Source of the DNA: Diphasiastrum complanatum
Lineage: Eukaryota > Streptophyta > Lycopodiopsida > Lycopodiales > Lycopodiaceae
DNA: 64,000 bases
Assembly: GCA_029204225.1 (NCBI GenBank)
Contig: CM055107.1
Coordinates: 12,974,040-13,038,039, forward strand
Direction: 5' to 3'
Under the pieces are notes generated by a model. It was given only the letters and a program-made list of their open reading frames with translations. It searched no databases and was not told the DNA's origin. The position numbers and the translations under genes were made by a program. This document shows positions 9,521-63,433 of this stretch, piece after piece (position 1 is the stretch's first letter; every line of letters begins with the position of its first letter).

Positions 9521-12500
9521 ATGTCATCCATGGGTGGTTATTTGTTGGAATCAAGTGAGAGACTTATTTTACTTGGAGAGTGAGGATGGAATCACTCCTA
9601 GTGATCCATGATCTCTTTGACATAGTTCTAGGAGTTGAGGAAGAGCCTCAAGCTCCCCAAGAACAAACCAAATACAAGAAGAGAGTAAGATTAGCTCTAC
9701 ATTGCATAAAGTTGAATGTATGCAATGACCCCTTGAAGGAGGTGTCTTTTTGTGCCTCATCCAAAGAGGCTTGGGATTCATTAAAGAGTATCTATGAATC
9801 CAATAACACTTTAAGAATCCTCATGCTAAGAAATCAAGTTTTTCAAAGCATGAAAGGAAGTGGAGAGAGTGGACAAGAGTATGTCCTTAGGATCAAATCT
9901 CTTAACAAGTAATTGAGTGCAATAGGAGAGAAGATCCAAGATCAAGAGCTAGTACAAATTATATTGAATGGCCTAGGTGATGAGTTCACCGACTTAGTTC
10001 AATCATTTGCTATTCAAGACACTCTTCCATCCATTGAAAAGTTGCATAATGTTCTTGTGGTCAAGGATAGTAGACTTCTACACCTCAAGACAAGAATGGA
10101 TGGCATGTCACTTAATGGAGGAGAGGAGAAAGCAAACTTTACATCCAAAGGCAAGAAGAAACAACATCCATTCAAGAAGAATCAAGGCAAGGAGGCCGAG
10201 ATGAAGAATGGAGGATCTACTTCCAAAGGCAAGGTGAAAAACAAGGCAAAGCTCAAGTGTTTCTTTTGTGGGAAGAAAGGACACTTTGCCTCAGAATGCT
10301 ACGTGAAGAAGAATCAACAAGCCAATGGAGATCAAGGGAACATTGGTAAAGAGAAAGAAGATGAGGATGGATTCAACACATCCTTAATGGTTGCATCTAC
10401 ACCAACTTCAAGTCAAGACACATGGTGGATAGATAGAGGGGCTAGTTCTCACATGTCTTTTAACAAGCATTATTTTTCTACTCTTCTCTCTTGTAATGAC
10501 TCTAAGAAGTCAATATACACTGCTAGTGATCAAGAATGCAAGATAGATGGCATAGGATCTATTCATCTTTGCTTAGGCACATCTAAAAGGATAGATCTAG
10601 GTAATGTTTTGTATGTTCCTACCATTTGAAGAAACTTGCTTAGTGTAGGACAATTAATGGACAATGGACTAGATGTACATTTCAAGAATGGAGTTTGGTC
10701 CATCTTGAAAAATGACAAGTGCATAGCTAGTGACATCAAGCAAGGTAGACTTTTCAAGTTGGATGCTAATGTTGCAAATGAAAGTGTGAACTTGGCTAGG
10801 GAGGAGCTATCTCAAGTGGAGTCAATGGCAATCAAGGAACTAGCTCTCGGCCTACCAAGAGCTTTCAAGAAGTGTGGAAAGATGTGTGAGGCATGTGGCC
10901 TTGCAAAGTCACACAAATCTTCTTACAAGAGATCTTCATCAAGATCTCCCTCTCCCTTGGATCTCATACATTCTGATGTACATAGTTTTTCACATGCAAG
11001 TAATGGAGGTTCCTTGATGTATGTAGCTTTTATAGATGATTGTACTAGATTCACATGGATTGAGTTACTATCAAAGAAAAGTCTTGTTTTTTAAGTTTCT
11101 TTTTCAGTTTAAGTCTCTAATTGAGAAGCAACTTAGTACTTCCATCAAAGCACTAAGATGTGATAATGGAGGAGAGTACACCTCCAATAAAATGAAAGAC
11201 TTTTGTGAGATCAATGGCATTGAATTGCAATACACTTGTTCCTACACCCCCCAAAAAAATGGGGTGGCCGAGAGGAAAACTAGGAGTCTATGTGAGTGTG
11301 AAAGGTCTTTAAGACTTGATGCATCACTTCCCATCTCATTTTGGAGAGAAGTTATAACATGTGCTAATTACTTGTGTAATAGACTTCCTAGTAGTGCTAT
11401 TGATGGGATCTCACCTTATCAAGCTTTGTTTGGTAAGGAACCCAATGTAAAAGACTTTAAGATCTTTGGACGTATTTGTTATGTCCACATCCCTTTGGAG
11501 ACAAGAAGGAAGGAAGATGCTACCTCCTTCAAAGGGATTTTTGTTGGCTATGGAGAAAATAGCAAGGGCTATAGGATATATGATCCTATATCCAAGAAAG
11601 TAAAGGTAAGCAAGGATGTACTTTTTGATGAGTCACAATTTGCTAAGCGCTTGTCTAATGGATCTAACCCATTGTGCATTGAGGATCTTGAAAAACCCGA
11701 GGAGGATCTTGACAAACCCGAGGAAGATCTTGACAAATCCGAGGATGGAGACAAGGATCCTAGTCAAAGGGGGCCGAGAAGATCATCAAGAAGCAAGGTT
11801 GAGCCCTCAAGGCTCACCTATGTGGACAAGGGAAAGCAAAAGGAAGAATCTACATCTTCTACCTCTTACCCTTTCTTAGCTACATTGCTTGAAGAACAAT
11901 CATCTTTTGAAGAAGTGTGTAAATCTAAAGTTTGGAGAGATGCAATGCAAGTAGAGTATGATGCATTAGAAGAAAATCATACTTGGACTCTTGTAAATCT
12001 TCCAAGAGGGAAGAAACCACTTGCATGTAAGTAGAATAAAGTACAATCAAGATGGATCTATTAGTAAGTACAAGGCTAGGCTTGTTGCTAAGGGATTTTT
12101 TCAAATAAAAGGATTGGATTATGAAGAAACATTTGCACTTGTAGCTAAGCGTGTAACTATTAGATTAATCATTTGCATTTCTACTTTGTTCAAGTGGGAT
12201 CTCTACCAAATGGATGTGACAAATGCTTTCTTGAATGGCTTCTTAGAAGAGTAAATCTACATAATGCAACCCGAGGGCTTCATCAAGGTTGGTGAGGAGC
12301 AAAAAGTGTGCTACTTAAGGAAGAGCCTATATGGCTTGAAGCAAGCACCTAGAGCTTGGTACTCTAGGTTGCATGATTTTCTCTATTCCCTTGGCTTTGT
12401 ACTAAGTGCTTATGAACCTTCTCTATATTTCAAATGTAATGAAGGAAAGATCATCATTTTGGTGCTTTATGTTGATGACATCATTATGACAGGAAATGAT

Positions 12501-13435
12501 GATGAAGGCATAAGCAAAGTAAAAGTTGATTTATCTAGTGAGTTCAAGATGGTAGATCTAGGCTTCCTAAAGTTTATACTTGGGATAGAAGTGTCTAGAA
12601 GTAGCAATTGTACTTTCATAAGTTAATCTAAGTATGCTTCTTCCATTCTTGAAAGGTTTGCTATGAAAGATTGTAAGGGGATTGACACCCCTATGGAGCA
12701 TGTTGTGAAAGCAACTAATGAAGCTAATGAAGCATCCTTTGAGGACATCACCCTCTTTAGGAAGCTTATAGGCTCTCTAATCTATTTAACCATCACTAGA
12801 CCTGACTTAACTTTTTGTGTAAGCAAGTTGAGTCAAAGTATGCAAGCTCCTTTAGTTCATCAATGGAAAAGTGCCAAGAGAGTACTTAGATATGTTTCTA
12901 GTACTAGATTTTTTGGCATCTTCATGAAGGATCTTATTTGCACTTGAGAGCCTACTCGGATTCAGATTTTGCAGGTGACAAGATGGATAGAAAGTCCATT
13001 AGTGCATTTGCAACATTTCTTTGTGGAGGAGTAATATCTTGGCTTTCCAAAAAGCAAGATACTATCTCACTATCTTCTTGTGAAGCCAATTACAAGGCAT
13101 TGACTTCAACAACCAAAGAGCTCCTATGGCTAAGAAGACTCTTGATGGAGCTACATGTGCTAGAGGCCGAGGAGATCCCTTACATATTCTGTGAAAATCA
13201 AGCTTCTCAACAAATTGCTTCAAATACTATCTTCCATGCTAGAACAAAGCATATTGAGATAGCTCACCACTTTGTGAGGGAGAAGATACAATCCAAGGGG
13301 GCGCAACTACATCATGTACCATCATCCGAATGCATAGCTGATATCTTAACCAAGCCATTGTCCAAAGATCCATTTTTCAAGTTAAGATATGCTCTTGGAA
13401 TTGTAGATAGATGTACATTAGATTTGCCAAGTTAG
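9521..13435 (+). pseudogene. Element A gag-pol polyprotein, disabled
   Basis: The frame starts as MSSMGGYLLESSERL and loses frame near 9570. In-frame stops follow at 9910-9912, 10627-10629, about 11092, 12032-12034, 12252-12254, 12624-12626 and 12945-12947, with frameshifts near 11090, 12035 and 12940. Recognisable in order are gag, a zinc knuckle (CFFCGKKGHFASEC near 10258-10299), a protease motif altered from DSGAS to DRGAS (near 10430), integrase (RCDNGGEYTS near 11156), reverse transcriptase (LYVDDIIMTG near 12470) and RNase H. The integrase zinc-finger start (normally WHKRLGHPN) is deleted: LSQVES runs straight into MAIKELALGLP. It is closely related to element B but clearly dead. Confidence 0.95.
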
Positions 13436-22537: not shown

Positions 22538-25500
22538 TTAGCTATCTATGAGGCAGGATAAAGTAATCTTCCCCGAATTATCCATATCAAGTGTATTGAA
22601 CTGCTGGCAAATTTCGTAAATGTCTTTTTGCGAGATTTTGCCCATTTCCTTCAGCTTGTACACAACAAACTCAGATTTGCTGCATTCAAATCCAAACAAA
22701 CAAAGTCAACCAAGAGGCGAACAACAACTAGGAAATTGCTCAAGCATAATCTCACTCTTGCATTGTAGGGAAACTCGTTATCAAACAGATTGTGTTACTG
22801 ATACTAAATTGTCTGTGACTCATACGTGTATAAGATGAGCAGTCTTGACTCCATGACCAATGATGTGCAATTTTACTTATGCAAAATACCAGCAAGAACT
22901 GCATAATGCATATAGAAAAAGGACGAAAGCAGCATAATTGCATTGATGTTCAACGTAACACAAAAAAGTGTAGTGAATTTGTTTTAGAGGTAATCATGCA
23001 ACAATGGGAGACGGGAAAAAGTTGTGCCAAGTAGCATCAACTTTCAATCTCGTTACTTGAAGAAACAGACGTCAAAACAGACTTCAAAAAACTAAAAGGT
23101 CAACTAGCAAGCAACATTTTTTGTCTAAGCAAACTCGACATAAAAGTCTTGAACATATTCTTTAGACTAATGGCTACCATCGATATTTAAAAAAGCTACT
23201 ATTCACTGTATTATACAAGCATAAAATTCCTTTCAACTGTCAAAAGCACATAATTGAAGAACTGAGGATGCTATACTACACAACACCAGAGTCTCATGAC
23301 CGATGCTTTAGCCACTAATCAAGCGATTACTAGAATCATGGAAGCAAGCATTGCAAAGACAACAGGGCATTGCTCAATGTATTACTTCAGCCTGTTGCTT
23401 CCTCTTTCACTCTTGAATCCACATCTCACAGACATGCAGCTTTGATTCACACAACATACACAAACTGTTAAGCTCAGGTGTCTATATATTATCAATCGGC
23501 ACTTTTCCTTCACAACCAGTTATCTACAGAACTCATGTGTAGCTAGAACTGAGGCACTAGTACCCACAAATGGTGTACTGGTACCAATATCTAACAATGC
23601 AACATAGCCAAAAGTATCTACAGAAAAGTTAGGTTATTGATACATCATAAAAATCTGTGCCACGAGATACAGGTATGTACATATGAGACACAGGCAGAGG
23701 TTCAAACGTCATTTGAGATTAACTTTTGAGTTCCAGACTCAGATTTGGAGGAAATTTTTTTTATAGCTGGTCCTCCTTTGCTCCTTATACATGCTAGTGT
23801 TCCACGCATATTATAGCAGCTTCTGACTCAATACAACGTGGCTAGTCCTTTTACACATCTCTTCAATACTATGGTTTCTTATATGGCTCTATTGAAGGGG
23901 CTGTTTTGAATCCAACCATATATAATTAGAGTCAGCTCTTTTTGCTGATAAATCTTAGCATGGTCCATAAGGTCATCTTTCACATTATGGGAAATTCTTG
24001 AGAGGTTCTTGCTGATATTGTCACCTGACGTCCACGGTCCCTGTGAACAGCTTGGGATCTCTTTGCACCACTAGATCCATTTCTTCCTGCTGCAATGACA
24101 TTCCTATTATGTAATATGTACGACTAGCTTGAGGTGCATTTCTACATGTTGGACTCTCTATTGTTGGTATTTTACCATTCCCCTGACACATTACCCAACG
24201 GGGTTGGCTCAGTTGGTTGGCTTGGCATCCAAAGTTTCTTTGGTCCCAAGTTCGAGCCTCCCCTTGGAAACCAAGAAGCATTCCCCTGACACACTTGGGC
24301 TACGAGGTGGCTTGGTGTATATGTAAGCTATCTGCTGCTACCTTTCATGGTACTCTTGTCCATCTGACTAGCATGGTATTCATATGCAACAGAGTTCGAT
24401 TGGTGCTCTCTAACAGACTCCTTTTACTATATGGTAACAGCCTACAGGGTTCTTATAGCACATTGGCAGAGTTCTACTCTTAAGTATTTGGCAGCAACAT
24501 TCTTATTTCATGCTTTAGGCAATAGGTACATGATGTTGCTTCCCTTTGCTATTCCTGGTCCAAAGAAATACCACAGACAACAGCGGTGTGTCTAGTTAGA
24601 CGCTGCACAGTTTCTTTTCTCTTCCGTCGTTATCTCGTTATCTTCAGCTTTCTTTTTGTAGTAACATGTTTTGGACTTTCTATACCCATGACATTGATCT
24701 TGATGTTTTTATTTGGCATTTTCGGTCCAGCTGGTTGGCATCGTATGAAAGCATGTAACTAAAGGGTTCTAATTTGGTATAACCATATACAAAGTACGAA
24801 TAAGTTAAGCTTTTCTCTTGAAATTACTAGGTGTTAATACTTGCCTGCAGTTGAAGACTAGTCTATTCTATTATACAAGAATGGTAGAAAGAAACATGAG
24901 TTGTGAAGAGATCGGATAGCATAGTGCTCACGTGATGTAGCCATTGTTATCAATGTCTGCAGCAACAAGATCTCCAACAGTCATCTGACGATGCAGCACC
25001 CACTTGGCAATGAGTCGGTTTCGGCGATCAATGCGAGCTTCTGCAAAAAAAAGAAATGCACGAGCTACCGCAAGGGTGCTGACCAGTAGCCATATAGCAG
25101 CAAATAGCCGACCTTCCATACTCTGGAACGTGTGATCACCATACCCAACTGTGGTGACAGACATGCAAGCTAAATAGAAAGAATCCAACCAGCTCAGTTG
25201 CTCCAACCTGTGCATCACAGCAGTCCCAACCCCCAAACACCCAATTACCACAAGCATTGCCAAGGCTACCTTCATTCTGATCCGCATTCGTCCTTTCTTC
25301 GTATTCACAAGATAATTCATTGCTGTCTCATGGTGGCTACCCTCAACTGCACTCAACAATAGGGTTTCCTGCCTTTCCAGAACAAAAGCCACCATTCCAC
25401 TCAAAAGAATGTCTATGAATCCGAATCCTACTAACACAAATGCACAGGCGAATAGCTTGGCCGTTGCCGAAAGAGGAGCAATATCACCATAACCTATTGT

Positions 25501-50515: not shown

Positions 50516-50816
50516 CATCGTTCACACTCTTTATTTTCTTTGCACTCCTTCAAACCTGTAGGAGGGAAAGAGGGTATGTGGTTTTATACACACTAATTAG
50601 TTCATTGTTGAGGCCGTCATATGGCATAATTTTACTCCTTTGTTGAGGGTTAACCTATAAAAGTTGAGGTGGCACTCTTAAGGTAAGAGCTCAAAGATTA
50701 GATTGAAAATGATTTTGTTCTTATATGTTTTTTCAACGCAATCTCTATTTTGTTTTTTCTTTTCTCACAATTGAATGCCTTGCATAAGGCAAAGCTTTCA
50801 TTATATACTAATCACC

Positions 50817-50899
50817 CAACAGGGTTGGCTCAACTGGTTAGCTTGGCATCCAAAATTTCTTTGGTCCCAGGTTCGAGCCTCCCCTTGGAAACCAAGAAG
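50817..50899 (+). mobile_element. Short tRNA-derived SINE, copy 2 (upstream of MMS21)
   Basis: An 83-base body holds an A box (TGGCTCAACTGG, 50826-50837) and a B box (GGTTCGAGCC, 50870-50879). It is flanked by a perfect 18-base target-site duplication, CATTATATACTAATCACC (50799-50816 and 50900-50917). The A box departs from the tRNA consensus at one position relative to copy 1. The end, CCTTGGAAACCAAGAAG, is shared with copy 1. It lies about 540 bases upstream of the MMS21 start codon. Confidence 0.88.
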
Positions 50900-50917
50900 C
50901 ATTATATACTAATCACC

Positions 50918-52942: not shown

Positions 52943-55504
52943 ATGGCAGAAGTTTCAAGCAGTTTTGCTATGGCAAACATGGGAGAGTCCATTTTGAGTG
53001 AAAGTAGCAAATTGGACGGGATTTCCAACTATGCAGTGTGGAAATTCAAAATGAAAAATATACTAATGGAGAAAGACGTGTGGGAAGTCGATAGGTGATG
53101 AGAGAAGACCGCCAAATGAAGCGGATATCAAAGTATTTGACAAAAAGATGAGGAAAGCTTTGACCTTCATTAACTTGTCAGTGAAGGATCACATCATTAT
53201 CCACGTTTGTGATGCTGTTACACCCAGACAGACATGGGATGTGCTAAAGGAGCAGTTTGAGACGTCAAATCCATCAAGAATCATGTTTCTGAAGTCAAAG
53301 CTAAATAGTGTCCGAATGGAACAAGGAGAGCACATTCAGACGTATATGACCAGAATCAAAACAATGAGGGATGAATTGCATTCTATTGGTGAGCACATAT
53401 GTGATGTGGAGCTGATGCACAATGCATTGTGCGGCATTGCAAAACCCTATCAGATGTTTGTGAGCGGAATAGCATCAAGGGAAAGATTGTCAACCTTTGA
53501 CGAGCTCACAGGAATCTTGATGCAGGAAGAGCAACGGCGAGAAATGGTGAAAGCTAGACGTCAAAATACTGACGATCAGGCACTTGCGACACGCCAAAAA
53601 CAAGGAAAGGCCAAGGGCAAGAAGAAGTCTACAGCAATTTTCCAAGTCTCTGGAGGATGAGGGATCTTTCAGTAAGACCAAGAAGAAAGGCAAGTGCTTC
53701 CATTGTGGTAAAAAGGGCTATTGGAAGAGTGAATGTCGCAAATTCCTAGCGGAACAAGGCAAGGGGAAACCAAAGCAAGCAGGTAACCTTGTCAATGAGG
53801 GTGAGATTGAAGACTCAAGCATCTTCATATCTGCATTTTCATCTAATCAAGATGATCAAGTGTGGTATATTGACTCGGGAGCCACAAGACACATGACAAG
53901 TAACAAGAATTGGTTCAGAGCTTGAAAGTGTTGGATAACGGAACGTCTGTTTCACAAGCAAATGGCGATGTGTGCAAGATCAAGGGGATAGGCACCGTTT
54001 CAATCCAACTACTTGATGGCAAAAGCAGGATGATCATGGAGGTACTTTACGTACCAGGTTTGAAGAAAAATTTACTTTCTGTTGGAGTCAAAACTGATCA
54101 AAAGTTGAAAGTAGAATTCGCCCATGATCGTTGCTTTGTGAAGGATGTGAACCAAAAGTTCAAAGTTATTGCGGATGGAGTAAGGGAGCCCAATACAAAA
54201 TTGTACATGTTGAATGCTACAATCAAGGGGCAATATGGACTTGTATCATCCATTCCAAAACTGAGCTGTGGCATAAGAGGCTTGGTCACTTGAACTTGGG
54301 AAGCCTCAATTTGATGAGAAAATTGGAGATGGTAACAGGATTGCCTACTATAGAAGACCACTTGAAATCGATGTGCGAATCATGTGTATATGGGAAGCAT
54401 CGTCGATAGAAGTTCAATAAAGGGGGTGTTGCAAGGGCAAAGAACATCCTGGATTTAATCCACACAGATTTACGCGAGCCTATGATGACCATGTCCTTAG
54501 GTAAAGCCTTCTATCTCATGACCTTTATTGATAATATGTCATGTAAGACGTGGATCTACTTCTTGAAGAAGGAGGTGAATACAAGTCTAATGACTTCAAT
54601 GATCTTTGTGATCAATGTGGGATTAAAAGACAATTTACGCAAGCTCATACTCCTGCTCTCAATGGTGTAGCTGAGCGCAAGAATCGTATGATTGTGAAAA
54701 GTGCCAGATCTATGCTAGCTGAGATGAAACTACCAAAAGATTTTTGGTCAGAAGCATGCAGTACGGCAGTCTATCTTCAACATAGAATTCCTACCATTGC
54801 CATACCAAAAATAACACCTGATGAAGCATTCACGAAGAAGAAGCCAAAGGTGAACCACTTGCGAATCTTTGGATGTAAGGCCTTTGTACACATTCCTAAG
54901 GAAGAGAGACATAAACTTGATGTGAAAGCTATCAAGTGTACATTCCTAGGATATGATGAACGTGTGAAGGGCTATAGATGTTTTGATCAAGTGGAAAACA
55001 AAATCCATGTAAGCTGTGATGTTATCTTTGATGAATCCAAGATGTATGAAGACGAGGATGCTGAGAAGATAGATACATCTAGTGGGAAAGATGGTATAGT
55101 GAGGATACCTCCTGATGATGATCCATTCATTGACCTTCCAAGTGATGAACACGAGGATACATCTCAAGATACTACTACTCAACCCCAAGAAACAGATTGG
55201 AGAGGTAGAGATAAACCTTTTGGTGCAAGAAGGATTGAAGTTGCAGGTGACAAACGCAAGGAGAAGGATGTACCATGGGATACATTTTCACCAGAAGCCG
55301 ATCACCTGACAGGAAGCTCCCTAAGTGGTTTGAGAGATTGTTGGAGAGCCGCGACATGGATGACTTTCCATGATCATCTAGCCAGGGAGAGCTACAAAGA
55401 TCAACAAGAGAGAAGACACAACCTGAAAGGTATGAAGCAAATTATGCTCTCTTATCTAGCATTATTCAAAGCAAATAACCTTCGACTTATGGTGAAGCGA
55501 AGGA
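52943..55504 (+). pseudogene. Element C gag-pol, first part (gag to end of integrase), disabled
   Basis: The ATG at 52943 opens MAEVSSSFAMANMGESILSE. A frameshift near 53090 and others near 53640, 53920, 54290 and 54410 break it. Gag (53148-53660) is followed by a zinc knuckle whose histidine has become tyrosine (CFHCGKKGYWKSEC, near 53697-53738), a protease motif YIDSGATRHMT (near 53865), the integrase zinc region LWHKRLGHLN (near 54265) and the integrase core. About 30 codons are missing between WIYFLKKE and GGEYKSND (near 54565), removing the middle of the catalytic core. The frame runs into element B at the codons for AKD. Confidence 0.92.
55500..55504. other. Left target-site duplication of element B (AAGGA)
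   Basis: AAGGA precedes the left LTR and recurs at 61925-61929 after the right LTR. Removing one copy restores the element C reading GEAK-DDDIWVKAM. Confidence 0.93.
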
Positions 55505-56159
55505 TGTGAAAAATACAGATCCTAAGTGGATCTAAACTCCAAGATCATTGGCTTGAATGCTTGCACTCCAAACTACATAAGCTAGGAATTGGCAACACAT
55601 TCTATGCTACCTAGAATGCAAAGAACTTGATCAAAAAGCATTTATCACAAATGGAAACTTCCATAAACATCAAGTGCGGCCCAAAATAACATTATACAGT
55701 CCATAATACATCAACCTACCACTTTTGGAAAGCACCTAAGATCATACACAATAGCTTGAAGACAATACACACAACAATGCTCTCAATGGAGGAAGAAACA
55801 ATGACAATGATCTATTGATCTCAATGAAGCATACAAAAGGTTTCTCCAACCTGTTCTCCACGACTTCCCTACTATTTATGGATGAGGAAGATGACTCTCT
55901 CTCCTCTCTCTAGAAGGTACTTGACCCTAGATATTCCCTATATAGGAAAAATAGCTAAAAATGGCTTATATGACCAAAATACATCAAAATGGTCTCATTT
56001 TGAAGGGTATGAAGTTTGACACTTCATCATACTGAAAAAATACAGTAAATAAAAACATTGTGGCCTGGTTCACACGTGTGAAACTCCAGAACCAAAACTA
56101 TTTACAATTTTAGCCAATTTAGGCCTCAAACTAGCTAGGAAATGTTGACAATTTTCACA
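55505..56159 (-). repeat. Element B 3' LTR (655 bp)
   Basis: In element orientation it starts TGTGAAAATTG at 56159, directly after the purine tract GAAGAGAGAG. It contains a TTCACACGTGTGAA palindrome around 56069-56082 and a TATATAGG-like promoter motif near 55940. Confidence 0.95.
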
Positions 56160-59100
56160 CTCTCTCTTCAACATTGGATGCTAGTTTCAACATAGTCTTT
56201 GAGCACATTCCAAGATTAGATCTATGCATTAAATATAGGTCCTTTCCCAATGGTTTGGTGAAGATATCAGCCACACACTCCTTTGAAGAGACATGTTGAA
56301 GCTCCACCTCTTTGGCAATGACTTGATCTCTCACAAAATGGTGAGCAATCTCAATGTGCTTGCTCCTTGCATGAAAAACAGGATTGCTTGCCAAGCTTTG
56401 GGCTGAAAGGTTATCACAAAGTATGATTGGAGTCTTCTCTGGTTCCAGCAAGTGAAGATCCAATAACATCCTCTTGATCCAAAGAATCTCCTTGGTGCAT
56501 GTTGTTAATGCCTTGTACTCGGCTTCGGTGGAAGATAGAGAGATAGTTGGTTGCTTCTTTTATAGCCATGAGACCACTCCATCTCCAAGATAGATTGCAA
56601 AGGCACTTGTTGACTTCCTATCCATTTGATCACCTACAAAATCTGAATCTGAAAATCCACAAAGGTTAGGTGTAGTACCTCCATACAAGATGCCAAAATC
56701 TCTAGATCCCGAGATGTATCTAAGTACTCTCTTTCCTAGCTTCCAATGAGCCTCACTAGGATCTTGCATAAATTGACTTAGTTTACCAACCACAAAGCTT
56801 AGATCAGGTCTTGTGATGGTTAACCATATAAGAGATCCTATTAGCTTTCTATAGAGAGTAATGTCCTTGAAGGATCTTTCATTACTTCTTGTAGTTAGCT
56901 TTACATTTGATTCCATAGGAGTAGAAACAACTTTACAATCTTCCATATGAAACCTTTTTAGAATAGAGTTAACATACTTTTCTTGACATATGAATGTAGA
57001 TTTAGAAGTTCTAATAATCTCTATTCCTAAGATATAATGAAGTTTACCAAGATCTTGAATTTCAAACTCTCTTTTGAGTGCCATCTTGATTTCATCTATA
57101 TCTAGATTGTTACCACCACTTAAGATAATGTCATCAACATAGATCAAAAGTAAAGTGATATCATTTTCATTCAATCTAAAGTAGAGAGAATGATCATACT
57201 CACTCATAACAAAGTTTTGAGAAAGTAAGAAGGAATTGAGCTTAGCATACCAACTCCTTGGTGCTTGCTTTAGCCCATACAAACTCTTTTGGAGATAGCA
57301 CACATGATTAGGCTCATCATGTGAAACATAGCCCTCGGGTTGCTCCATGTAAATATCTTCTTCAAGATCACCATTCAAGAAGGCATTAGTAACATCCATC
57401 TGCCACATATCCCAATCATAAAGAGTTGCAAGAGAGATTAGGATTCGAATAGTTACCATCTTTGCCACGGGTGCAAAGGTCTCATCATAGTCAATACCAT
57501 ATTCTTGAGCATACCCCTTTGCCACCAACCTTGCCTTGTACTTGTTGATTGATCCATCTTGATTTGTCTTGATCTTGAAGATCCACTTACAACCAATTGC
57601 CTTCTTGTCCTTTGGAAGCTTTACCAACCTCCATGTGTTGCTTTTGATGAGTGCTTGATGCTCATGATCCATGGCTTGGATCCATTCCTTCTTTTGAATT
57701 GCTTCACCTACACAAGTTGGTTCATCAAAAGAGGTAAGAAAAGCAAAGTTAGAGTTGTCCACCACTTGCTTTCCTTTTTCATCATAGGTTAGCCTTGATG
57801 GCTTAGCCCTTTGCCTTTGAGTCTTCCTTGAAGTTTGCTTTGGAGTGGCATCTCCATCTTCATCCAAGACATCTTGCACATCATGATGATTAGTAGGCAC
57901 ATCAACATCAACATCAACAACATTGGAAACATTCTCTTCATGAAAGATGACATCCCTACTTATGACAACTTTCTTTGTAGAAGGAATGTACACTTTGTAA
58001 GCCTTGCTTACTTCACTATAGCCAACAAACACACCCTTCTTTGATGAAGGATCTTCTTTAGTTCTATCATCAAGTGTGATATTGACAAAACATGTACATC
58101 CAAAGATCCTACAATGCTTGACACTCGGCCTTCTACCATAAAGAACCTCATGAGGAGTTTTACCATCCAAGGAAGCACTTGTCCATCTATTACATAGATA
58201 GTTAGCACATGCTAAAGCTTCCCCCCAAAAAGACTTAGCAAGATTAGCATGTAGTCTCATTGCCTTGGCACATTCACAAAGGGTTCTATTCTTCCTCTCG
58301 GCCACTCCATTCTGTTGTGGAGTCCTAGGACTAGACATCTCCCTCTTAATCCCATGTGCTATACAAAAGTCTTTGAACCTATTTGAGGTGTATTCCCCTC
58401 CATTATCAGATCTTAAGCATTTGATCTTTGTATTGAATTGGTTTTCCATTTCATTCTTGAACTTGACAAATGCAGCAAACACTTCATCCTTACTTTTAAG
58501 AAGATAGATCCAAGTATACCTACTAAAGTCATCAATGAAAGTTGCATACATCTTTGCCCCACCATTGCTAGTTGTACTAGAAGAATGAATATCAGAATGC
58601 ACAAGTTGAAAAGCTTCTTTAGATCTAGAAGTAGATCTAGAATAAGCAAGTCTATGAGATTTGGACAAGGCACAATGTTCACAAACACTATTGTTTGCAA
58701 CAAGACTTTTAGGGAGACCAAGAACAAGCTCTTTCTTTGCCATTACCTCCAAAGATTTGAAGTTGGGATGGCCCAACCTCTTGTGCCAAACTTCTTGGTT
58801 TGTCAATTGCTCCCTAGCCATACATCCTTCATGATTAGAGATCACACATGCATCAAGCTTGAAAAGTTTACCATGCCTCCTACCTTGAGCAATCAAGGAT
58901 CCACATTTACTTATCAAACATGCATCTCCAATGAACTCCACATCAAGTCCTTTGTCAATCATTTGACTTACACTAAGCAAATTCTTAGTGATTGAAGGAA
59001 TGTACAAAACATTTTCAAGATTTGCTTTCCTATTTGTTGAAAGGGAAATAGGAATAGTGCCTATGCCTTTGATGTCACATTGACCATCATTTGCAGTGTA

Positions 59101-60096
59101 GATGATGTTACCTTCTCCCTCATAAGACAATAAGGATGTAAAGTATTCCTTATGTCTTGTCATGTGAGATGAGGCTCCACTATCAATCCACCAAGGATCA
59201 TTATCATCTATGTTGGCTAACAAACTTGAAGTCATAACAAGTGATTCACATGTGTTATGTTCTTCCTCATCTATTGTAAGATTTCCTTGTCTCTCTCCTT
59301 GCTCTCTTTTCTTCTTATAACATTCATTTGCAAAATGACCTTTTATCCCACAATAAAAGCACTTGAACTTTGACTTATTGTTCTTAGTAGAAGAGGAAGA
59401 GGAAGAGTGATCATCATGATCAAAGTTACCACCTTTGGACCATTTCCCTTTGCCCTTGAATTTGCCTTTTGTGAAGAAAGCCTCTTCACCTCCACCTTGC
59501 AAGGATGCACCATCAAGCTTTGATTGCAACCTATGTTCTTCAGCCAATAAGATTTCTTGCAAGTCAACCACACTTGGCAAGACTCTTTGAATGGCAAAAC
59601 TTTGCACAAGGTTAGCATGTTCATTTAGCAAACCATTCAACATAACTTGGACTATTTCACCATCTTTTATGTTCTCATCAATGCATGCTAAATCATCACT
59701 TAGGGACTTAACTCTCAAGATAAATGCATGAGCACTTTCACCCTCTCTTTGCCTACTAGAAAATATTTGTCTCCTTAGGGTCAATACCCTAGATGTGGAC
59801 TTTGATTCAAAGAGCTTCTTTAAGGCATTCCATGCCTCACTTGCACTTTGACACTTTCCAACTTCCTTGAGAAGTTCATTTGTAACATTCATTTTAATGA
59901 TATGAAGAGCCCTTTTGGCCTTCTTATCAAACCTTTGTTGCTCTTGAAGTGTGAGAGGTCTCTCTTCAATTTCTGCAACTATGTCCATGAGTTCATTCAA
60001 CTCAAGTAAGGACTCCATCCTCACTTTCCAAGTAGAGTAGTTTGATGAACTCAACCTTTCACTAGACTCTAGCATGATCCCACCATTGGAAGCCAT
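56155..60096 (-). pseudogene. Element B gag-pol polyprotein, one nonsense codon
   Basis: A single frame of 1313 codons is broken only by TAA at 56560-56562 (codon 1179), in RNase H between VSWL and KKQPTISLSS. Relatives have serine there, and TCA to TAA is one change. Domains: gag (1-230), zinc knuckle CFYCGIKGHFANEC (about 246-259), protease WWIDSGASSHMT (about 304-315), integrase zinc region WHKRLGHPNF (near 440), integrase core with RSDNGGEYTS (near 565), reverse transcriptase with QMDVTNAFLNG and LLIYVDDIIL (about 850-1080), RNase H with GFSDSDF and, after the stop, STEAEYKAL and ADIFTKPLGK. The final stop TGA is formed inside the first bases of the 3' LTR. Before the nonsense change it would have made a full copia polyprotein. 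Confidence 0.95.
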
Positions 60097-61257
60097 GATT
60101 CTAATGTTTCTTCAACTTTTAGGTTCTGTCCTAAAGCACTTAGCACTCACTTTTCTCTCAACAAATGATAGATAAAGAGATCTATGAAGATTTAGGACCC
60201 TAAAACACTTCTATCTTGAACCTAGATGGTTTCCAAGCATAGAAAGGAAGATTGAAACACATGCAACACTTTGCACACACTAAGAATGGATTACAAAATC
60301 AAACCAACCTGAACACACTCTTGCTTAAGCTCTCAAACTTTCCAGCAAGTGACCAAATCAAGTTATGGTGTGAAGAGTTACTTGCATTCTTAGAAAATAC
60401 CCAAAACTAGGATGCCAAGATTACCTAGTAATGAACAAACTTGATCAACATATGATCAACACACTAAGATATTGATTCAACCTGTAAAACCACATGTAAA
60501 CCACACTTCTAAAAGTTTATAAACTCCAGCAAGTGATAAATACAAGATTTAGAGGTGAATGAATGAGCACACTTAGTGAATCACAAGACTAGCTTCACTA
60601 TCTTGTCAAATCTTGGTGTTTAGATGTAGATCTAAGATCACTTCGCATGAGAATGTTCCTCAACCTGTTAAGAACCTGAAAACACACTTGCATAATGGTT
60701 AACACCTTCCAGCAAATGCTCCAATCAAATTACATAAGGAGAGTTACTTACATGCTCAACAAAGTACACCAAAAATTATGTCAAAATTGATGACAATCTT
60801 TACAATATGCTCTTCACAATGGAGCTTACAATATGTTCACCCAAAAAAGGGGATCTTTCATCCAAATGGGAGCTTTGCTCAGCCTTTAGGAGAATTACAA
60901 CTCACTCAAAAAGAGCATTTGTCATCCACTTAAGGAGAAGTTTCATCCACTTAAGGAGAGTGTTCATCCAAGAATGGAGATTGTCAACAATAGGATTGAA
61001 AAGAACATTGTTAGTATTGAATATGCACAAGCCTCACAATCACAAATGATTAGGTGTTATGATCTGATCCAAAATAGTTTCTTTTCAGCCTCTGATCTTC
61101 AATAGACCTGAAATATGCTTTTGATCCACAAGTTCAACTCACAAAACAAAGGTTAGTAAGATTTGATCAACAAAGCAATGCAAAATCATGCTAGAACTTG
61201 ATCAAACATCCAAATATCACCAAAAATGGAATACTTACTGTAAATAGAAGCCAACCA
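60097..61257 (-). other. Element B leader before gag
   Basis: About 1.16 kb between primer-binding site and the gag start. It holds several short repeated motifs (for example CACTTAAGGAGA twice near 60935-60960) and no long frame. It would be the 5' untranslated leader. Confidence 0.75.
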
Positions 61258-61269: not shown

Positions 61270-61924
61270 TGTGAAAAATACATATCATAAGTGGATCTAA
61301 ACTCCAAGATCATTGGCTTGAATGCTTGCACTCCAAACTACATAAGCTAGGAATTGGCAACACATTCTATGCTACCTAGAATGCAAAGAACTTGATCAAA
61401 AAGCATTTATCACAAATGGAAACTTCCATAAACATCAAGTGCGGCCCAAAATAGCATTATATAGTCCATAATACATCAGCCTACCACTTTTGGAAAGCAC
61501 CTAAGATCATACACAATAGCTTGAAGACAATACACACAACAATGCTCTCAATGGAGGAAGAAACAATGACAATGATCTATTGATCTCAATGAAGCATACA
61601 AAAGGTTTCTCCAACCTGTTCTCCACGACTTCCCTACTATTTATGGATGAGGAAGATGACTCTCTCTCCTCTCTCTAGAAGGTACTTGACCCTAGATATT
61701 CCCTATATAGGAAAAATAGCTAAAAATGGCTTATATGACCAAAATACATCAAAATGGTCTCATTTTGAAGGGTATGAAGTTTGACACTTCATCATACTGA
61801 AAAAATACAGTAAATAAAAACATTGTGGCCTGGTTCACACGTGTGAAACTCCAGAACCAAAACTATTTACAATTTTAGCCAATTTAGGCCTCAAACTAGC
61901 TAGGAAATGTTGACAATTTTCACA
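61270..61924 (-). repeat. Element B 5' LTR (655 bp)
   Basis: Nearly identical to 55505-56159 with the five differences clustered near its primer-binding-site half. It carries the palindrome CACACGTGTG at 61836-61845. Confidence 0.95.
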
Positions 61925-63433
61925 AAGGATGATGACATTTGGGTCAAGGCCATGGGAGAGGAGATGGAGTCAATTGCTATGCATAGCACATGGGACTTAG
62001 TAGAACCACTAGTTGTCAAGAAACCCATTGGTTGCAAATGGGTATATAGGACTAAGTACCATGCAGATGGAAGTATAGCAAAGCACAAGGCAAGATTGGT
62101 GATCAAAGGGTATGCACAAAGTAAAGGCATCGACTATGAGGAGACCTTTGTGCCAGTATGTAAGTGGAATACTCTAAATCTACTTGTTGCTTTAGCTCCA
62201 CATTTTGGTTGGCCTTTGCATCAGATGGATGTGAAATCTGCTTTTCTAAATGGTGAGTTTGAAGAAGAGGTGTTCATGGATCAACCTGAAGGTTTTGTAG
62301 TGAAGGGACATGAAAATAAAGTATGTCGCTTGAAGAAAGCGCTTTATGGTCTTAAACAGGCACCACGTGCATGGTATAGCAGAATTGATGCCTACTTCCG
62401 TTCAAAGGGGATGGTGAGAACACATTCTGATCCAAATCTATATGTCTTATGCTTTGATGGTATGGTTGTTTTGATTGCTCTTTATGTTGATGACTTGATT
62501 ATTACGAGAAATAATCAAGAGATGATAGACATGATCAAGAAAGACCTTGTGGAACAATTCGAGATGACAAATCTCAGCCTGATGCATTATTGCCTTGGAG
62601 TAGAAGTGTGGCAAAAAGGACACGAAGTGGGTTTAACATAGGTAAAGTATGTCAAAGAGCTGTTGCACAGGTTTAGGTTGCAGGATTGCAAACCAGTGAA
62701 TACTCCTATTGAACCAGGTGAAAAGCTTTCTAAGCTTGATGAGTCACAATCATTTAATGCTACGCTGTATAGGCAGTTAGTAGGGAGCTTGATTTACCTT
62801 ACCACGACTAGACCAAATATATGCTATGATGTTGGCATTGTAAGTCAGTTTATGGCAGCACCTACGGAAATGCATTGGAAGGCAGCTAAACGCATTTTGT
62901 GTTATGTGAAAGACACTTCAGATTATGGCTTGATTTACAGGAAGCATGATGGTTTACCTGAGTTGTGTGGCTATGTGGATGCGAATTGGGGAGGTGACTA
63001 TGATGATCGTAGATCCACCACAGGGTATGTATTTCAGTTTTGTGGTAGTTGCTTTTCCTGGTCTAGTAAGGAGCAAAGTGCAATTGCTCTATCCATCACA
63101 AAAGCAGAGCATAAGGCAATGTGTAGTGCAACACAGGAAGCTGTATGGTTGAGACAAATGTTGGAAGAAGTTGGCATGAAGCAAAAAAATCCCACGACAT
63201 TACATAGCGACAGTCAGAGTGGCATTTAGCTAGCAAAGAATCCAGTGTTCCATGCGAGAATCAAACACATTGAGATTCAATATCACTTTATACGTGAGAG
63301 GTTGCTGAGTCATGAAATTCATGTTGTTCATTGTAGTACGGGAAAACAACTAGCTGATATTTTCATTAAGCCACTTGTTGGAGAAAAGTTTGATAAGTTT
63401 ATATCAAAGCTTTCTGTACTTAAAGTTTGTTGA
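61925..63433 (+). pseudogene. Element C pol, second part (reverse transcriptase and RNase H), disabled
   Basis: It resumes the frame cut by element B with DDDIWVKAMGEEMESI. Reverse transcriptase is recognisable by GCKWVYRTKY, HQMDVKSAFLNGEFEE, YGLKQAPRAWY and LIALYVDDLIITR. A stop lies at 62639-62641 (after GLT) and another at 63227-63229 (after SQSGI). RNase H has GYVDANWGGDYDDRRSTTGY, and the frame ends ADIFIKPLVGEKF...VC at 63433. The RT and RNase H type differs from elements A and B, so C belongs to another copia lineage. Confidence 0.93.

Follow-up and report, generated by a model that had tools for sequence, protein, structure and literature searches.

The two copies in the window

The window, that is, the whole 64,000-nt stretch of Diphasiastrum complanatum DNA analysed here (C16:12974040-13038039 of a 1.74-Gb assembly), contains Copia-like polyprotein frames at 9913-13435, 53067-55509, 56155-60111 and 61904-63229, and these frames are accompanied by long direct repeats, spaced about 5.4 and 5.8 kb, with the appearance of LTR pairs. 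One further frame has ion-channel domains and another a sigma-70 region, a content in keeping with a plant. The window also carries two copies of a short element, each between perfect direct repeats (Table 1). A first-pass annotation had described two bodies with common A- and B-box-like words and an identical 3' end, flanked by repeats of 15 and 18 bases, one pair per copy, and sequence comparison confirms this description. BLAST of the window at E values up to 10 returned no third copy.

Comparison of 30 loci, one of the window copies among them, places the conserved end of the element at ...AAGAAGCATT/...CCAAGAAGCATT and not at ...CCAAGAAG. Because the conserved part extends to ...CCAAGAAGCATT in these loci, the element is 90 bp long. 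Its CATT is counted twice, once as the 3' end of the element and once as the first four bases of the duplicated target. The earlier remark that both repeats begin with CATT is therefore true, but it does not describe a coincidence of two targets: the word is the element's own end as well as a requirement of the target.

Table 1. Positions of the features of the two element copies, numbered from the first base of the window.
Feature	Position	Strand	Remark
Left target site duplication, copy 1 (CATTCCCCTGACACA)	24176..24190	+	one copy of the repeat at the empty site
Element copy 1, 90 bp, full length	24193..24282	+	compared with 30 loci
A-box-like word TGGCTCAGTTGG, copy 1	24205..24216	+	sequence, against the box consensus
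B-box-like word AGTTCGAGCC, copy 1	24249..24258	+	sequence, against the box consensus
3' tail AAACCAAGAAGCATT, copy 1	24268..24282	+	predicted single-stranded; final 4 bases overlap right duplication
Right target site duplication, copy 1	24279..24293	+	its CATT is also the element 3' end
Left target site duplication, copy 2 (CATTATATACTAATCACC)	50799..50816	+	final 3 bases could equally belong to ACC, with which the element starts
Element copy 2, 90 bp, full length	50814..50903	+	diverged further than the subtype of copy 1
A-box-like word, copy 2	50826..50837	+	sequence
B-box-like word GGTTCGAGCC, copy 2	50870..50879	+	sequence
3' tail AAACCAAGAAGCATT, copy 2	50889..50903	+	
Right target site duplication, copy 2	50900..50917	+	

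Family size and copy boundaries

Exact genome matches to the last 20 bases of the element in SINE context number 4062, as opposed to 0 for the reversed control, a count that leaves aside diverged copies and takes in duplicated regions of the assembly. The resemblance of the two window copies is thus not due to chance, a chance repeat was rejected, and the possibility that the genome holds only these two copies is refuted. A DNA search of the genome gave 53 matches from 40 scored candidates (of 2619 first-look candidates); 52 distinct full-length sequences from the fetched loci diverge from their majority sequence by a median of 6.7%. The 3' end is near-invariant: 2629 exact copies end ...GAAGCATT (read GAGCCTCCCCTTGGAAACCAAGAAGCATT), versus 33 in which the base after GAAG is other than C (T in 25), a comparison that leaves out copies with C but not CATT. 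Being short, non-coding, dispersed and present in many copies, the element has the general properties of a SINE; the A/T-rich or simple-repeat 3' tail usual in SINEs is absent, and the element ends in AAACCAAGAAGCATT, which is no repeat.

Where full-length copies have an exact duplication of at least 12 bp (39 copies), the body starts between -3 and +4 bases from the duplication. Among 162 flanks of 150 nt, taken upstream and downstream of 81 sites, 8 contain SINE sequence; no longer element was found in the 154 SINE-free flanks, which give only 6 scattered alignments at E 1e-3. We rejected a fragment of a longer SINE on these grounds, and the doubt whether the copies might be pieces of a longer known SINE is settled in the same way. 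Alignments start after position 5 in 12 of 32 copies of a coordinate-ordered sample, 5 of them at position 23 or later; the remaining late-starting ones may be diverged rather than truncated. In the extreme case, L061, only the last 22 positions match, and the copy has its own 16-bp duplication with one mismatch.

For copy 1, the joined flanks with one duplication match C16:16540512-16540648 (minus strand) at 137/137 positions, which identifies an empty site. The flanks of copy 2 match C16:16493827-16494092 (minus strand) at 99-100%, and since the match has the same 83-base gap as the window, copy 2 is present there. The insertion of copy 1, missing from this second C16 region, is hence recent. 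The region itself lies inverted about 3.5 Mb away on the same contig, matches the flanks of both copies at 99-100% (window 24120-50985; C16:16493827-16540648), and possibly represents either a second haplotype retained in the assembly or a duplication of recent date. On C14, a repeat relative with 77% identity continues across the copy 2 site, and at L035 a neighbouring tandem-repeat unit carries the uninterrupted target. With thousands of dispersed copies and an empty site, the first-pass view of a very short, tailless retroposon with box-like promoter words and target duplications is supported.

Target sites

Ninety loci and the window gave 177 matches, reduced to 124 after removal of repeats, at 81 sites; window copy 1 entered the duplication test as L001. 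Selection of the loci relied on matches in which the CATT end is included or favoured, and the right-hand CATT is consequently partly built in. The left-hand CATT is not, provided that the duplication is sought unanchored, i.e. from the bases after the element's CATT only, requiring an exact left repeat, 8 bp or longer, in a 60-base range. Such a repeat is present at 53 of the 79 sites testable at the 3' end, which gives the element the variable target duplications of a SINE; many of the 26 sites that have no 8-bp repeat hold old, truncated or complex copies. The four bases before the left repeat are CATT in 52 of the 53 sites and CATA in one (L051). Broken down by the search that supplied the loci, CATT is seen in 22/22 for the DNA search, 23/24 for the 3' 20-mer, 6/6 for the 19-mer outside SINE context, and 1/1 for window copy 2. 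A pyrimidine precedes CATT in 51/51 first-insertion sites (one site beside another copy's tail was omitted), while the background is 52% of 3075 CATT words in the same loci.

A CATT-anchored version of the test, which partly builds in its CATT result and is superseded by the unanchored one, found that 59 of 60 duplications start with CATT and that a pyrimidine precedes it in 57/57 (p about 1e-16 versus the 52% background). Counting the CATT, the duplications are mostly 14-17 bp long, with two outliers of 28 and 34, and the target is T/C-rich upstream of CATT. The CATT before the left repeat, together with the preceding pyrimidine, fits target-primed reverse transcription, in which the 3' CAUU of the RNA would anneal to a nicked ...AATG-3'OH. 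The element forms a real tailless SINE-like family that was recently active, and marks in the sequence give good support to its mobility by target-primed reverse transcription.

Tandem arrays

Copies often stand in tandem. Arrays of 2 to 8 copies occur in 20 of 81 entries, with 43 junctions, and since two L058 entries are one array, this makes 19 arrays at 80 sites; the coordinate-ordered loci, with L058 merged, have 4 arrays at 28 sites. Exact tandem junctions, in which one copy's end is followed by the next copy's start after a 4-28-base spacer, number 285 genome-wide (control 0), part of them repeated in duplicated regions. Among roughly 100 junctions listed, the spacers vary between sites and often end at different bases within a site, as at L009, C3:62353617-62353966 and C7:56268920-56269062. 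In one region, L058-L060 (C1:15422974-15423708), an array of about ten copies at a single site mixes diverged and near-consensus subtypes.

Arrays could also arise by unequal crossing-over or replication slippage instead of repeated insertion, as the identical neighbours in some of them (L011, L058) might suggest. Duplicated copies should be mutual closest relatives, and 12 of 44 array copies are indeed tied with or closest to an array mate (3 closest inside, 9 ties). The closest relative of the other 32, however, lies outside the array, which fits independent insertions; moreover, the end base of the spacers varies within a site, and arrays combine diverged with near-consensus subtypes. Crossing-over was accordingly rejected as the main source of the arrays, and we consider this explanation unlikely. 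From the density in the examined loci, we estimate roughly ten million Y-CATT words per genome for a few thousand copies, so random double hits should be few. On the relationships of their copies, the arrays seem to have arisen mostly by separate insertion events at the same site. We claim no polarity of insertion, since the copy nearest the consensus is the first in 7 arrays, the last in 5, a middle one in 3, and tied in 3.

RNA shape and promoter-like words

Folded by itself, one copy reaches -32.7 kcal/mol (z -2.1). Alignment of 18 copies, hand-picked from the 52 for diversity, yields a predicted rod of four stacked helices that leaves the 15 nt of AAACCAAGAAGCATT single-stranded; when the 3' end is folded alone, an alternative hairpin CTTGG-AAA-CCAAG forms there. 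In the rod, 95.4% of cells are standard pairs. Both-sided changes are found in 5 pairs (reached by 4/500 shuffles), together with 20 further pair types (21/500), and the covariation score of 0.166 is reached by 0/500; sliding the partners destroys the signal. These statistics are to be read with the knowledge that related copies can beat all shuffles without any structure and that the structure was derived from the same alignment. The pair of columns 33 and 54, which splits the copies 8 to 8, probably reflects one event. We therefore regard the rod with its 15-nt single-stranded tail as a predicted structure with some covariation support.

The element contains internal words resembling the A and B boxes of Pol III promoters, which we assigned by sequence, against the box consensus. 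They are its only tRNA-like feature. ARAGORN reported no tRNA in the element, and Rfam gave no tRNA, 7SL or 5S match for either copy at E up to 10. The label "tRNA-only" in the first-pass annotation finds partial support in the box-like words but is not shown: neither ARAGORN nor Rfam reports a tRNA, the predicted shape is a rod and not a cloverleaf, and there is a 15-nt 3' extension. TTTT is absent from the consensus, and a transcript would therefore have to terminate in the flanking DNA.

Comparison with known systems

The closest mechanism, by analogy, is that of the tailless retropseudogenes of therian mammals, which are described as primed by complementarity of their last 2-18 nt (PMC5322556). 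According to that account, they share with our element small-RNA sources (there including tRNA), a single-stranded 3' end (predicted in our case) without oligo(A), a target complementary to the last bases, and target duplications. The lack of oligo(A) and the complementary target hold here as well, with CATT in 52/53 sites. The therian sequences are, however, portrayed in PMC5322556 as arising from L1 activity as a by-product, from many source RNAs and with many endpoints, the target being TT/WAAAAWW, whereas ours form one self-propagating, amplifying family in a plant host, with one fixed endpoint, the target Y/CATT, and tandem re-insertion. Many endpoints are not seen within the family (2629 CATT ends versus 33 in which GAAG is followed by a base that is not C).

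Plant SINEs are summarized in PMC8825457 as built from a head, a body and a tail that is A/T or of low complexity; the AnnoSINE pipeline described there drops candidates rich in tandem repeats. Our element resembles the tRNA-type ones among them, as characterized in the same source, in its A- and B-box-like words, its high copy number and duplications of about 15 bp, but differs in its length of 90 bp and in lacking a separate body as well as any tail of poly(A), poly(T) or simple repeats. SINE-Finder, with its tail rule in the form given in PMC8825457, would probably miss it. This suggests that annotation of plant SINEs that relies on A/T tails and excludes tandem repeats could miss such families.

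By the account in PMC3747384, the SINE/LINE pairs known from flowering plants numbered only three as of 2013. Those treated there, ZmSINE2/3 with LINE1-1_ZM and TS with RTE-1_Stu, have a fixed, conserved 3' end like that of our element, as in stringent recognition; in our case, unlike in those pairs, a rod of the whole element is predicted rather than a LINE-derived stem-loop, and no LINE with the same end was found.

ID elements of rodents, which use L1, are likewise very short, with a tRNA-type head and almost no body, but have an A-rich tail that our element lacks. Text searches of the open-access literature returned no description of a plant SINE that ends in CATT or re-inserts at its own site.

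Proposed life cycle and helper enzyme

RNA polymerase III would transcribe the element from its internal A and B boxes, and the RNA, in keeping with the covariation among copies, would fold as a rod with the 15-nt single-stranded 3' tail AAACCAAGAAGCAUU. A LINE-type enzyme may then nick the bottom strand at AATG|R, the top strand reading Y|CATT as in the observed targets, and the freed AATG-3'OH, paired with the CAUU of the RNA, would act as the primer. The duplications of variable length would follow from a second nick, in most cases 13-18 bases further on, and the 5' truncated copies from incomplete cDNA. Because each insertion restores CATT and the duplicated target, the same site can be re-entered and arrays can build. 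We infer that this whole life cycle, with Pol III transcription, enzyme and priming as its conjectural steps, is very probably the best explanation of the two window copies, and that the 90-bp element is a genuine, recently active retroposon family of a plant genome, a SINE in its behaviour. Against this reading stand the failure to find a LINE with the same 3' end, the poly(A) at every LINE end that could be placed (4 of 8 stretches), and the 26 of 79 sites with no 8-bp repeat. More tentatively, and as a possibility rather than a probability, the element may be a minimal SINE in which the rod and the 15-nt tail are the whole retrotransposition signal, the last four bases are the primer-binding word that sets the target, and the landing site is rebuilt each time, arrays forming by re-insertion.

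With a near-invariant four-base end, a near-invariant target word and a covarying fold, the family provides a natural template of very small size for studying how a LINE-type enzyme selects its RNA and its target, and an unusually simple case for how such parasites choose their insertion site. Recurrent insertion at the same site would also weaken the assumption that a shared SINE insertion proves common descent.

The helper is a separate question, for which a stringent LINE, RTE-like or of another kind, with recognition of the rod or the tail and a CATT end of its own, has something near an even chance. The fixed 3' end and the strict CATT target speak for it, as do the plant precedents TS/RTE-1_Stu and ZmSINE2/3/LINE1-1_ZM set out in PMC3747384. 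Such a LINE was, however, not recognised by eye among the 30 fetched of 32 hits to the exact 19-mer 3' end outside SINE context. Seven of those hits have no adjacent full SINE body, two of the seven being copies of one locus; L077 adjoins a SINE fragment, and the others apart from L061 have no clear duplication. A 12-mer search gave 216 hits against 22 in the reversed control, with no dominant context among about 100 listed. Within the latter, AACATCTCCAAGAAGCATT recurs about 8 times and is possibly another repeat that ends in, or contains, the 12-base end of the SINE.

A scan of 99 sequences (357 kb, some overlapping, with a partial SINE filter) for exact repeats of at least 12 bp starting with CATT also counts against a stringent LINE: it found 12 left-maximal cases, compared with a mean of 4.4 over all 256 four-base words and a highest count of 23, and a second CATT-bounded family was not recognised by eye, the assignable cases being SINE remnants, tandem repeats and LTR elements. 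The helper searches are weak against a rare LINE, because the exclusion positions retain only some of the partners that might exist, about a third with the 19-mer and two fifths with the 12-mer. A stringent LINE may share too little sequence with the SINE to be seen, or may now be rare.

Alternatively, the helper is one of the genome's own poly(A)-type L1 elements, working in a tailless way, which would keep its preference for T-rich sequence upstream while the terminal CAUU primes instead of poly(A); we think this possible but lean towards doubt. LINEs with zf-RVT matches and poly(A) ends do exist in this genome: in eight stretches read, the 3' end could be placed in four, all with poly(A) soon after the stop of the frame. 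The target is T/C-rich upstream of CATT, and the therian retropseudogenes, as PMC5322556 presents them, end in single-stranded RNA regions complementary to TT/WAAAAWW. The mammalian by-product, however, has many source RNAs and endpoints, while the thousands of copies seen here go back to a single RNA and a single endpoint, a pattern suggestive of specific recognition. As for the element being no retroposon at all, its being short, non-coding and in places tandem might recall a DNA transposon, a satellite unit or a chance repeat, but this is hardly credible, as no terminal inverted repeats were seen by eye, duplication length varies, 5' truncation goes with a constant 3' end and the empty site is precise; a MITE was also rejected.

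With Exo_endo_phos_2, no LINE 3' end was recognised in the two stretches fetched. Eight small contigs (C429, C895, C2882, C3077, C3692, C4775, C4778 and C5075) have zf-RVT matches in very long open frames of up to 7233 codons. Except on C5075, these matches recur every about 8 to 31 kb, several near 19.7 kb, and the contigs may represent either something LINE-like arrayed in tandem or a GC-rich repeat.
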